DNA from: Streptomyces sp. V3I8
Lineage (GTDB): Bacteria > Actinomycetota > Actinomycetes > Streptomycetales > Streptomycetaceae
Assembly (NCBI RefSeq): GCF_030817535.1
Contig: NZ_JAUSZL010000002.1
Coordinates: 6,696,001-6,760,000 of the forward strand
DNA length: 64,000 nt
Direction of reading: 5' to 3'
A program made the position numbers and the translations under genes. Of this stretch, positions 56,162 to 60,746 are shown in pieces; position 1 is the stretch's first letter; the number at the start of each line of letters is the position of its first letter. Under the pieces are notes generated by a model, which saw only the letters and a list, made by a program, of their open reading frames with translations, did not search any database and was not told where the DNA came from.

Positions 56162-56165
<4 letters not shown>

Positions 56166-57682
56166 GCGGGTGCTCCCGGTGGGATGAAAGGCAGTCCTGT
56201 CGGCGCGCCGGACTCGATGAGCCGCCACAGCGCGTCCGTGTCCGCGTGTTCCTCGATCAGATCGCCGAGCCGGTCCAGCTGCTCCTCGCGCAGCCCCGCG
56301 AACGACGTGTCGGCGGCCGGTACGAAGCGGCGCCCCGCGGCGGCGGCCACCTCGCGCAGGAAGGCACGCCGGAAGCCGTCCGACTCCAGGGAGCCGTGCC
56401 AGTGCGTGCCCCGGACCGCGCCGACCCGGCAGCCGTCCAGGAAGGGCTCGCCGCCGGTCACCTCGGCGACCCCGTGATGGATCTCGTACCCCTCGACGGG
56501 TTCGCCGAGGGCCTCGCCGACGGGCCGGGCGAGGGTCTTCTCGCGCGCGAACCGCACCCGTACGGGGAGGAGTCCGAGCCCGTCGACGGCGCCGGCCTTC
56601 GACTCGACCTCGTCCTCGATGTGGTCGCCGAGCAGCTGGAAGCCGCCGCAGATGCCCAGCACGGGGCGCCCCTCGGCGGCCCTGCGCACCAGGGCGTCGG
56701 CGAGGCCGCGCCGCCGCAGCCACTCCAGGGCGCGGACCGTGCCGCGGGTGCCGGGGACGACGACCAGGTCGGCGTCGACCAGTTCCTCGGCCCGGTCCAC
56801 GAACCGCACGACGACGCCCGGTTCGGCGGCGAGGGCGTCCAGGTCGGTGAAGTTGGACATCAGGGGGATCGCGCAGACGGCGACCCGCAGGATGTCCTCG
56901 CCGACGGGGGCGGACACCTCGGACTCCCGTACCGAGCCGCGCATGCTGACCCCCAGTCCGTCCTCCTCGTCGATGCCGAGCCCGTGTTGGAAGGGCAGGA
57001 CGCCGTAGGTGCGGCGCCCGGTGAGCCCGTGCAGCATGTCGATGCCGGGTTCGAGGAGGGAGACGTCCCCGCGGAACTTGTTGACCAGGAACCCGGCGAC
57101 GAGCTCCTGGTCCTCGCGCGACAGCAGGGCCACCGTCCCGAAGAAGGAGGCGAAGACCCCGCCGCGGTCGATGTCGCCGACCACGAGCACGGGCAGCCGC
57201 GCGTTGCGCGCGATCCCCATGTTCACGATGTCCGTCCGCCGCAGATTGATCTCGGCGGGACTTCCGGCCCCCTCACAGATCACCGCGTCATACGTGCCCC
57301 GCAACGCGGCCAGACAGTCCAGCACGGTCCCGAGCAACGCCTCCTGGCGTCCGCCGTGGTAGCCGCGCGCACTCATCTCGCCCACGGGTTTCCCCATCAG
57401 GACGACCTGGCTGCTGCGGTCGCCGCCCGGCTTCAGCAGGACGGGGTTCATGAGCGCGGTGGGCTCCACGCGGGCGGCCTGCGCCTGCATGGCCTGCGCG
57501 CGCCCGATCTCGGCGCCCTCGCGCGTGACGAACGAGTTCAGGGACATGTTCTGCGCCTTGAAGGGCGCGACCTTCACCCCCCGCCGCACCAGCCACCGGC
57601 AGATCCCGGCGGTCACGACGCTCTTGCCCGCGTCGGAGGTGGTGCCGGCGACGAGCAGGCCCCTGCCCGGTCCACGGTTCAT
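56162..57682 (-). CDS. cobQ: Cobyric acid synthase
   Basis: This 506-residue class I glutamine amidotransferase amidates four carboxyl groups of the corrin ring. The ATP domain has LLVAGTTSDAGKSVVTAG and KVAPFKAQNMSLNSFVTREGAEIGRAQAMQA. The GATase domain has Cys in PVLGICGGFQLLG and His in VRGTHWHGSLESDGFRRAFL. ATG 57682 overlaps the cobD stop. Confidence 0.96.
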
Positions 57683-58659
57683 GAGGTACGCCCCTTCCCG
57701 GCGGGCTTCCTGGCGAGTCTCCCGGTGAGCGGGGTGACCAGCAGCCGGCCGGTGACGCACGCGCCCAGCGCGAGCAGGCTCACGCGCCGGGAGAGCCGGA
57801 CGGCCCGCTCGATGTCTTCGACCCGTACGGCGCGCCCCGGGCCGTTGAGGACGGGCCGGTGCTCGACCCGCCCCGCGTACGAGAGCGTGCCGCCGAGCCG
57901 CACCCCGAGCGCCCCCGCGAACGAGGCCTCGACGGGCCCGGCGTTGGGGCTCGGATGCCGGTCGGCGTCCGCACGCCAGGTGCGCAGGGCTCCCCGCGGA
58001 TCGCCCCCGGCGACGGTCGCGAGGACCGCCGTCAGCCGGGCCCCGGGCCATCCGACGACGTCGTCGAGGCGCGCGGAGGCCCAGCCGTACCGCCGGTGAC
58101 GGGCCGACCTGTGCCCGACCATGGCGTCCAGCGTGTTGACGGCCCGGAACCCGACCAGACCGGGCACGCCCGCGACCGCGCCCCACACCAGGGCGCCCAC
58201 GACGGCGTCGGAGGTGTTCTCGGCGACCGACTCGACCACGGCCCGGGCGATCCCGTCGGCGTCCAGCGCCTGCGGGTCCCGTCCGCACAGGTGCGGCAGC
58301 CGCTCACGGGCCGCCTCGACGTCCCCGGCGGCCAGCGCCCCACCGACCGCCCGCGCCTCCCGCCCCAGCGAGGTCCCCCCGACGACGGCCCAGGTGGCGG
58401 CGGCGGTCAACGCGACGGAAGCGGCACGGCAGTCACGTACGGAACGCCCGGCGGCCACGGCGAGGGCGACGGCGCCGCCCGCGCACACGGCGGTGTGCAG
58501 GGCGCCCCACCCCCGGTGGTCCCGCCACAGCACCCGCTCCACGGCGCCCGCGGCCCGGCCGAACGCGGCGACCGGATGCCCCCGGCGGGGATCGCCGAGC
58601 AGCAGGTCACCGAGGAGGCCGGCGGCGGCGCCGTACGCGAAGACGCGATCGGCACGCAC
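57679..58659 (-). CDS. cobD: Adenosylcobinamide-phosphate synthase (CbiB type)
   Basis: This 326-residue membrane protein has several hydrophobic helices and the CobD/CbiB signatures LLLGDPRRGHPVAAFGR, ARAVVESVAENTSDAVVGALVWGAVAGVPG and FRAVNTLDAMVGHRSARHRRYGWASARLDDVVGW. It joins (R)-1-amino-2-propanol (phosphate) to adenosylcobyric acid. GTG 58659 is the start. No clear ribosome site is seen, but a 34-codon ORF ends 4 bases upstream, so translation may be coupled to it. First enzyme gene of the riboswitch-led operon. Confidence 0.94.
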   Translation of the reverse strand: MRADRVFAYGAAAGLLGDLLLGDPRRGHPVAAFGRAAGAVERVLWRDHRGWGALHTAVCAGGAVALAVAAGRSVRDCRAASVALTAAATWAVVGGTSLGREARAVGGALAAGDVEAARERLPHLCGRDPQALDADGIARAVVESVAENTSDAVVGALVWGAVAGVPGLVGFRAVNTLDAMVGHRSARHRRYGWASARLDDVVGWPGARLTAVLATVAGGDPRGALRTWRADADRHPSPNAGPVEASFAGALGVRLGGTLSYAGRVEHRPVLNGPGRAVRVEDIERAVRLSRRVSLLALGACVTGRLLVTPLTGRLARKPAGKGRTS

Positions 58660-58663
58660 GGGC

Positions 58664-58768
58664 TCAGCCCGCTTCTACGTCGGACAGCACCCTCGTACTC
58701 GGCACCCTCGTACCGGGTGCGGGCACACTGGTACTGGGCACACTGGTCCACAACGGGCAGCCGCGCAT
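58664..58768 (-). CDS. Putative 34-residue leader peptide downstream of the cobalamin riboswitch
   Basis: On the minus strand an ATG at 58766-58768 is preceded by GTGAGGAC at a suitable distance. It opens a 34-codon frame ending in TGA at 58664-58666, 4 bases before the cobD GTG. The peptide contains short repeats (TSVPSTSVPAPG, TRVPSTRV), which correspond to imperfect 16-base DNA repeats. It is unlike any family that I know. Its place between riboswitch and first gene suggests translational coupling or attenuation, but it may also be chance. Confidence 0.4.
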   Translation of the reverse strand: MRGCPLWTSVPSTSVPAPGTRVPSTRVLSDVEAG

Positions 58769-58799
58769 GGCGATATGTCCTCACTCAGGGTGTCCACGC

Positions 58800-58970
58800 C
58801 CTGGTTCGACGAGACCGACGACGAGAGTTCCTGGCTTCCCGGGGGATGGATTCCCCGGTAACAGTGGCGGGACCGCGCCGGATTCGCACCGGCTTCCTCT
58901 CCTGCCGTCGTACATGGCCCCGGCAGTCCACCACGGCCCCGGAACACCCGTCAACTTGCTGTTGACCTGC
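58800..58970 (-). promoter_or_regulatory. Cobalamin (adenosylcobalamin) riboswitch
   Basis: Read on the minus strand, this leader contains GAAGCCGGTGCGAATCCGGC, the most conserved core of cobalamin riboswitches. GGTCCCGCCACTGT and a GGGGAATCCATCCCC hairpin follow. The B12-box region GGGAAGCCAGGAACTC is close to the downstream end at about 58830. The order and spacing of these parts are as in published actinobacterial elements. It lies 5' of cobD and should switch off the operon when B12 is plentiful. Exact ends are estimated. Confidence 0.92.

Positions 58971-59486: not shown

Positions 59487-60746
<1,260 letters not shown>

Follow-up and report, generated by a model that had tools for sequence, protein, structure and literature searches.

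The closest described counterpart of the locus studied here is found at ppe2 of Mycobacterium tuberculosis. As reported by Kipkorir et al. (2024, PMC11260477, excerpts), a B12 riboswitch there controls an upstream ORF (uORF), uPPE2. According to these excerpts, PPE2-LacZ was severely diminished when the Shine-Dalgarno sequence (SD) or the start of uPPE2 was removed, and likewise when its stop was removed; uPPE2 and PPE2 were made as separate peptides, mainly via termination-reinitiation. The preliminary description of our locus had known of no report of a riboswitch-controlled leader ORF with reinitiation for this element; the 2024 publication describes such an arrangement. According to the excerpted part of a 2025 review (PMC12713380), neither the ppe2-cobQ-cobU association nor its riboswitch is strongly conserved in mycobacteria. 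The word Streptomyces occurs neither in the text of PMC11260477 nor in PMC12713380. For Streptomyces, an excerpt of PMC8079986 lists a (Cobalamin)-cobD-cobQ-cobN transcript, and one of PMC4991794 cites a cobalamin riboswitch before SCO1847-1853; a leader ORF is mentioned in neither excerpt. Our search of titles and abstract starts, with most subscription journals and supplements outside it, returned no description of a leader ORF at this position in Streptomyces. The riboswitch before Streptomyces cobD is already known, and this kind of leader relay is known from uPPE2; what appears to be new is its conservation in Streptomyces.

We analysed a stretch of 64,000 nucleotides from Streptomyces sp. 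V3I8 (the window; GCF_030817535.1, contig NZ_JAUSZL010000002.1, positions 6,696,001 to 6,760,000), in which the following features were located, in the order of transcription:

58806..58947, minus strand: cobalamin riboswitch aptamer with a truncated P6 extension (RF00174, 46.1 bits, E 2.2e-08)
58786..58803, minus strand: P13 hairpin, CAGGG-CGTGGACA-CCCTG, its loop being the putative kissing partner (L13) of L5 (sequence)
58778..58784, minus strand: SD of the leader ORF, GTGAGGA, 9 nt 5′ of the leader ATG
58664..58768, minus strand: leader ORF of 34 codons, from ATG to TGA (58666-58664), peptide MRGCPLWTSVPSTSVPAPGTRVPSTRVLSDVEAG
58660..58663, minus strand: spacer from the leader stop to the cobD start, 4 bases, GCCC (sequence)
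57679..58659, minus strand: cobD/cbiB, adenosylcobinamide-phosphate synthase, with a GTG start at 58659 and without an SD core (NCBIfam equivalogs)
56162..57682, minus strand: cobQ, cobyric acid synthase, the next gene of the operon; frame only, start approximate (NCBIfam NF001989, 586 bits)

The RF00174 match exceeded its gathering score of 31.5 bits and was the sole match above a gathering score within the window; 25 nt separate the CCCGCCACTGT box from the B12 box. The identity of cobD was given by NF002276 (454 bits, cut-off 381) and TIGR00380 CbiB (175 bits, cut-off 166). The layout claimed in the preliminary description, a riboswitch followed by a 34-codon leader and then cobD, was borne out by the coordinates of the RF00174 match, the ORF and the NCBIfam matches. 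The same holds for its details: the leader has its own ribosome site, the distance of 4 bases from its stop to the cobD GTG is exact, and no GGAG, GAGG or AGGA is present upstream of the cobD start, which had been said to have no clear ribosome site. We must also note that the anti-SD duplex at the cobD start of the window (−6.2 kcal/mol) was not far from that at the leader start (−7.7 kcal/mol), though an SD core is missing. Upstream of the riboswitch, we observed a Pit-like transporter frame (59487-60746) with scores under the family cut-offs. The same genome holds further B12 riboswitches.

Two sets of related loci were compared with the window. Set 1 consisted of the window and the 80 nearest loci by cobD similarity alone (79 from Streptomyces, 1 from another actinobacterium). 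Set 2 consisted of 80 genomes hand-picked from the matches of a P13-SD-ATG pattern, and P13, SD and ATG were thus part of the selection. Of 199 Streptomyces genomes, 177 carried the pattern, which left the 22 pattern-negative ones out of set 2, and the reversed control of the pattern gave 0 among the matches listed. Some species may occur in both sets (139 of 147 leader sequences were distinct), and counts over loci are not independent because the loci are related. With both sets combined, a separate leader ORF preceded cobD in 147 of the 161 Streptomyces loci (78/81 in set 1 and 69/80 in set 2). In set 1, 81/81 loci had both the SD block and, 6-10 nt past GAGGAC, an ATG; in the three without a separate leader (L048, L059 and L061), that ATG belongs to cobD itself. 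The exact SD block CCCTGAGTGAGGAC was present in 78/78 leader loci of this set, which was chosen by cobD similarity, and each of these 78 carries a short SD-bearing ORF directly after the aptamer, one of the features that mark the uPPE2 type. The leaders were 17-50 aa long, in 21 different lengths, and all ended with TGA (147/147). The stop lay 2-5 nt 5′ of cobD in 77 of the 78 separate leaders of set 1.

Conservation of the leader frame in relatives, which the preliminary description had proposed as a check, was assessed with the cobD start set from the conserved GDPRRGHPV motif and with the leader stop ignored (n = 146; L122 was excluded, having no usable start). The first in-frame leader stop fell −4 to +7 nt from the cobD start in 145/146 loci (77/78 in set 1, 68/68 in set 2), compared with 0/146 and 4/146 in two control frames, and the frame thus proved to be kept. 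The single outlier of set 1, at +22, was taken as L050, which has a longer cobD N-terminus and another in-frame ATG at +4; a nearest-start variant of the test gave 146/146 in the true frame and 0 and 4 in the controls. With the nearest in-frame start taken, the leader stop and the cobD start were 4 nt apart in 109/146 loci and 3 nt in 24/146 (range −4 to +7), and a true overlap of stop and start was present in only 3/146, unlike in uPPE2. Moreover, the cobD tree called for at least 56 changes in leader length, each of them in whole codons. This tree comprised 160 loci (L176 dropped out) and 330 columns, with less than 80% support for 63 of 151 inner branches. The figure of 56 is therefore approximate; far fewer frame-keeping changes would already decide for the leader frame. 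Openness of the leader alone is a weak argument because frames in GC-rich DNA are often open: frame +2 was stop-free over the leader in 122/139 cases and frame +1 in 76/139. The GC content by codon position was 0.66, 0.78 and 0.78, which differs from the typical pattern of Streptomyces genes. The conservation indicates that the leader is not a product of chance, and that what is selected is its start with the SD, its open frame and its stop beside cobD.

The missing ribosome site of cobD was equally general. An SD core upstream of cobD was found in 0/146 leader loci. The mean anti-SD duplex over these loci was −7.52 kcal/mol at the leader start (shuffled, −4.59) and −3.75 kcal/mol at the cobD start, and in 111/146 loci anti-SD binding by the region upstream of cobD did not exceed that of its shuffled sequence (means of −3.75 and −4.54). 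The weak anti-SD binding at the cobD start (58659-58678 in the window, and in other leader loci) looks as if a ribosome site were avoided there. We also observed that GGCTGANCC, around the leader stop (58660-58669), is strongly conserved among the 109 Streptomyces loci with a 4-nt gap, with no obvious reason.

In 14 of the 161 Streptomyces loci (3 in set 1 and 11 in set 2), no leader is present and cobD sits directly on the riboswitch SD; for the 11 loci of set 2, this SD belonged to the selecting pattern. Two types were recognised, (i) loci in which cobD begins at the leader position (e.g. L059, L131, L132, L192), and (ii) loci in which the cobD N-terminus is fused to codons resembling the first codons of a leader (e.g. 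L048, L061, L174, L180). That the riboswitch SD serves as the cobD SD in these loci is as expected if it was always the entry point. The presence or absence of the leader required 6 changes on the cobD tree, of which at least 3 are forced by well-supported branches. From the majority of loci and from the other families described below, we infer that the leader-less loci are losses from an older, leader-bearing state.

On the riboswitch side, the P13 stem with a CGNGGA loop was present in 161/161 Streptomyces loci, 80 of which had been picked by a pattern containing it. Across families, 93% of the cells of the stem were paired, and 2 of the 5 pairs were changed on both sides. Its covariation score, from 6 distinct rows with the arms entered by hand, exceeded that of 497/500 shuffles and of all slid versions; the count was limited to the stem arms because MAFFT misplaced gaps when given whole P13 pieces. 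The P6 extension of the Streptomyces cobD riboswitch was long in 39/161 loci (72-104 nt) and truncated in 122/161 (20-36 nt, the type of the window), and 6 changes between the two forms were needed on the tree.

Most likely, the locus is a cobalamin-repressed translational relay, in which the riboswitch would act on the leader ribosome site and the leader on the coupled translation of cobD, most probably by termination-reinitiation. At low B12, the P13/SD region would be open and ribosomes would initiate at the leader ATG, read 17-50 codons of indifferent sequence and terminate at the TGA. They would then restart within a few bases on the SD-less cobD start, with cobQ and the remaining cob operon to follow. 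With B12 bound, the aptamer would dock with the P13 hairpin beside the SD through the L5-L13 kissing contact and shut the leader site, and cobD would be deprived of its sole ribosome supply. The preliminary description had proposed control of the leader site together with reinitiation at cobD. Control of the leader site and coupling are indeed the most likely reading, given a frame kept in 145/146 loci; as the form of coupling, reinitiation is more probable than unfolding of the cobD start.

In the unfolding form of coupling, ribosomes on the leader would melt a pairing between the two starts, and fresh ribosomes would initiate at cobD with no restart by the same ribosome. We consider this possible, if unlikely, as the whole account. 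The duplex between leader start and cobD start was stronger than in dinucleotide shuffles (mean z −1.0, with 45% of 135 loci below −1), in 123/146 loci the predicted folding gave the leader start more openness than the cobD start, and the predicted fold of the window pairs the two starts. Furthermore, an excerpt of the review PMC12548453 leaves both models of coupling open. The pairing showed no co-variation, however: in an arm-swap test of the leader hairpin over 140 loci, its own arms paired no better than swapped ones (z 0.03), and column scans of the leader gave no convincing covarying helix, which is why we claim no structural role for this hairpin. The cobD start was also no less open than positions +12..+40 of cobD (0.313 and 0.311, respectively), and fresh ribosomes would find no SD at cobD in 146/146 loci. 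Finally, unfolding does not require a close stop, yet a close stop was found in 145/146. Within the relay, melting of the weak start-start pairing may contribute, as the folding predictions suggest.

We regard it as very doubtful that the main role of leader translation is to protect the transcript against termination by Rho, which would make the effect one of polarity and not of coupling at cobD. Rho was weighed for uPPE2 by its authors, and Rho-dependent termination at the M. tuberculosis metE switch is reported in the review (excerpts of PMC11260477 and PMC12713380, respectively). The stop-codon constructs described in the former excerpts nevertheless indicated that Rho was not responsible for the loss at uPPE2, and polarity leaves the missing cobD SD and the tight stop-start spacing unexplained.

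It is highly improbable that the leader is a chance open frame, that cobD initiates by itself in an SD-less or leaderless manner and that the riboswitch works by transcription termination. Such a reading could draw on the 17% of leaderless transcripts in S. lividans (PMC8079986, excerpt), on a Streptomyces griseus cobalamin riboswitch with premature termination before another gene (PMC8914203, excerpt), and on the frequency of open frames in GC-rich DNA. Against it stand the conservation of frame and stop relative to the two control frames, the length changes, at least 56 of them and all frame-keeping, and the 14 leader-less loci, in which cobD uses the usual SD of the leader (11 of these, in set 2, were selected with that SD).

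An attenuator or arrest peptide, in which the leader amino acids would sense something and stalling would control cobD, is scarcely credible, for although leucine leaders are known in S. lividans (PMC8079986, excerpt) and Cys-4, Arg-5 and Gly-19 are common among the 59 leaders of 19 aa (56/59, 53/59 and 59/59, respectively), pN/pS is 1.0, the leaders have 21 lengths and 14 loci have none. The pN/pS of these 59 leaders was 1.01 in the true frame and 1.07 and 1.02 in the other frames, and we reject a function of the peptide because the ratio is close to 1.0, as in the false frames. A few residues at the leader ends are shared, but with a ratio no better than that of the control frames, a conserved attenuator-type peptide or set of codons was discarded; the conserved leader ends could equally be explained as RNA or as start and stop context. 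A Pfam search with the leader peptide gave no match. A conserved fusion or frameshift product was rejected because cobD stands in no fixed frame to the leader (110, 25 and 11 of 146 loci in the three relative frames). The internal VPST repeats noted in the preliminary description are present, as three copies of a 15-nt unit. They bear no sign of function: the repeat is shorter or altered in relatives, and as a signal it was set aside as lineage-specific. Tandem Repeats Finder, at a score of 30, did not include it in its list.

Beyond Streptomyces, we found a co-directional riboswitch next to cobD in five genomes of other families. Four of these loci have leaders (the one in L233 less certain), and in the fifth, L274, cobD follows directly. 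The four leaders were:

L203: leader of 21 aa, 5-nt gap to cobD
L232: leader of 19 aa, 1-nt gap to cobD
L239: leader of 26 aa, 3-nt gap to cobD, TAA stop
L233: leader of 35 aa with a GTG start, less certain

In L233 (G022), cobD has no ATG, GTG or TTG after P13, and the nearest candidate, a CTG, overlaps the leader TGA. The four-to-one ratio of leader to direct cases is no frequency, because the four were found by comparing coordinates by eye. When the regions upstream of cobD at 40 loci of other families and orders, one region of only 261 bases, were scanned for a riboswitch (E 0.01), a co-directional match appeared only in L274; the matches in L269 and L272 were below the gathering score and on the strand opposite to cobD. 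When uORFs were called automatically at 89 riboswitch loci (60 regions from outside Streptomyces and L086-L114, a few of the latter from Streptomyces), the noise was too high for counting, and for leaders beyond the genus only loci read by eye were used. These readings place leaders before riboswitch-linked cobD genes in three actinobacterial families besides that of Streptomyces, and probably in a fourth.

The same platform was also seen before other genes. In L111 (G055), a hairpin-SD platform is followed by a 41-codon leader that overlaps the next gene by 4 nt at stop and start; in two loci of a different genus in the same family, L213 and L215, the gene sits directly on the SD of the platform. 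We take the genes behind the platform in all three loci to be cobN-like, as recognised by eye from their sequences. In L214, a 24-codon leader overlaps the next gene by 4 nt and the P13 is like that of Streptomyces; this gene, again by eye, is presumably mycobacterial ppe2-like.

These data make the riboswitch-controlled uORF look like a general kind of arrangement. Tentatively, and as a real possibility, we suggest that the translated leader is an old and general part of one actinobacterial cobalamin-riboswitch platform: a landing pad, indifferent to its own sequence, that fixes the P13/SD site, to which any gene can be attached, and that was repeatedly lost by the gene moving onto the riboswitch start. 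If so, the genes hooked to it would be cobD in Streptomyces and other families, the cobN-like gene, and mycobacterial ppe2-cobQ-cobU, and uPPE2 would be a surviving instance and no pathogen peculiarity. The single M. tuberculosis case would become a rule on riboswitch-operon coupling in a group of B12-making bacteria, including the model streptomycetes. The leader-bearing and leader-less forms of one gene would allow a direct comparison of the riboswitch-to-reinitiation relay in a harmless and genetically easy system. There is also a warning in this, since reporters that rely solely on the annotated start, and gene callers that ignore short ORFs, would overlook what the switch really targets.

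Among known systems, the B12 riboswitch of Streptomyces nrdABS shares the type of riboswitch and the genus, and differs in that it reportedly controls transcription, as stated in the title of the 2006 paper by Borovok et al. Neighbouring genes are also reported to be translationally coupled through termination-reinitiation (Huber et al. 2019). Such gene pairs have the close stop and start in common with our locus, and coupling is best at small distances (excerpt of the review PMC12548453); in contrast, the upstream ORF in Streptomyces encodes a non-conserved peptide, is missing in some species and would be under direct ligand control. M. tuberculosis metE/uMetE2 likewise has a uORF in a cobalamin riboswitch leader. 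According to the excerpts of PMC11260477, uMetE2 is located within the aptamer and has a suppressing effect on MetE, whereas the Streptomyces leader comes after the aptamer and is predicted to be necessary. With uPPE2 the likeness is closest: a cobalamin riboswitch, a short SD-bearing ORF by a P13-type hairpin, and a next gene without an SD whose start adjoins the uORF stop. The dependence of the downstream gene on uORF translation was demonstrated experimentally there and is predicted for the Streptomyces leader. In Streptomyces, moreover, the first gene is cobD, stop and start mostly lie 3-5 nt apart where uPPE2 has an AUGA overlap, conservation of the leader spans the genus, and natural leader-less versions exist.
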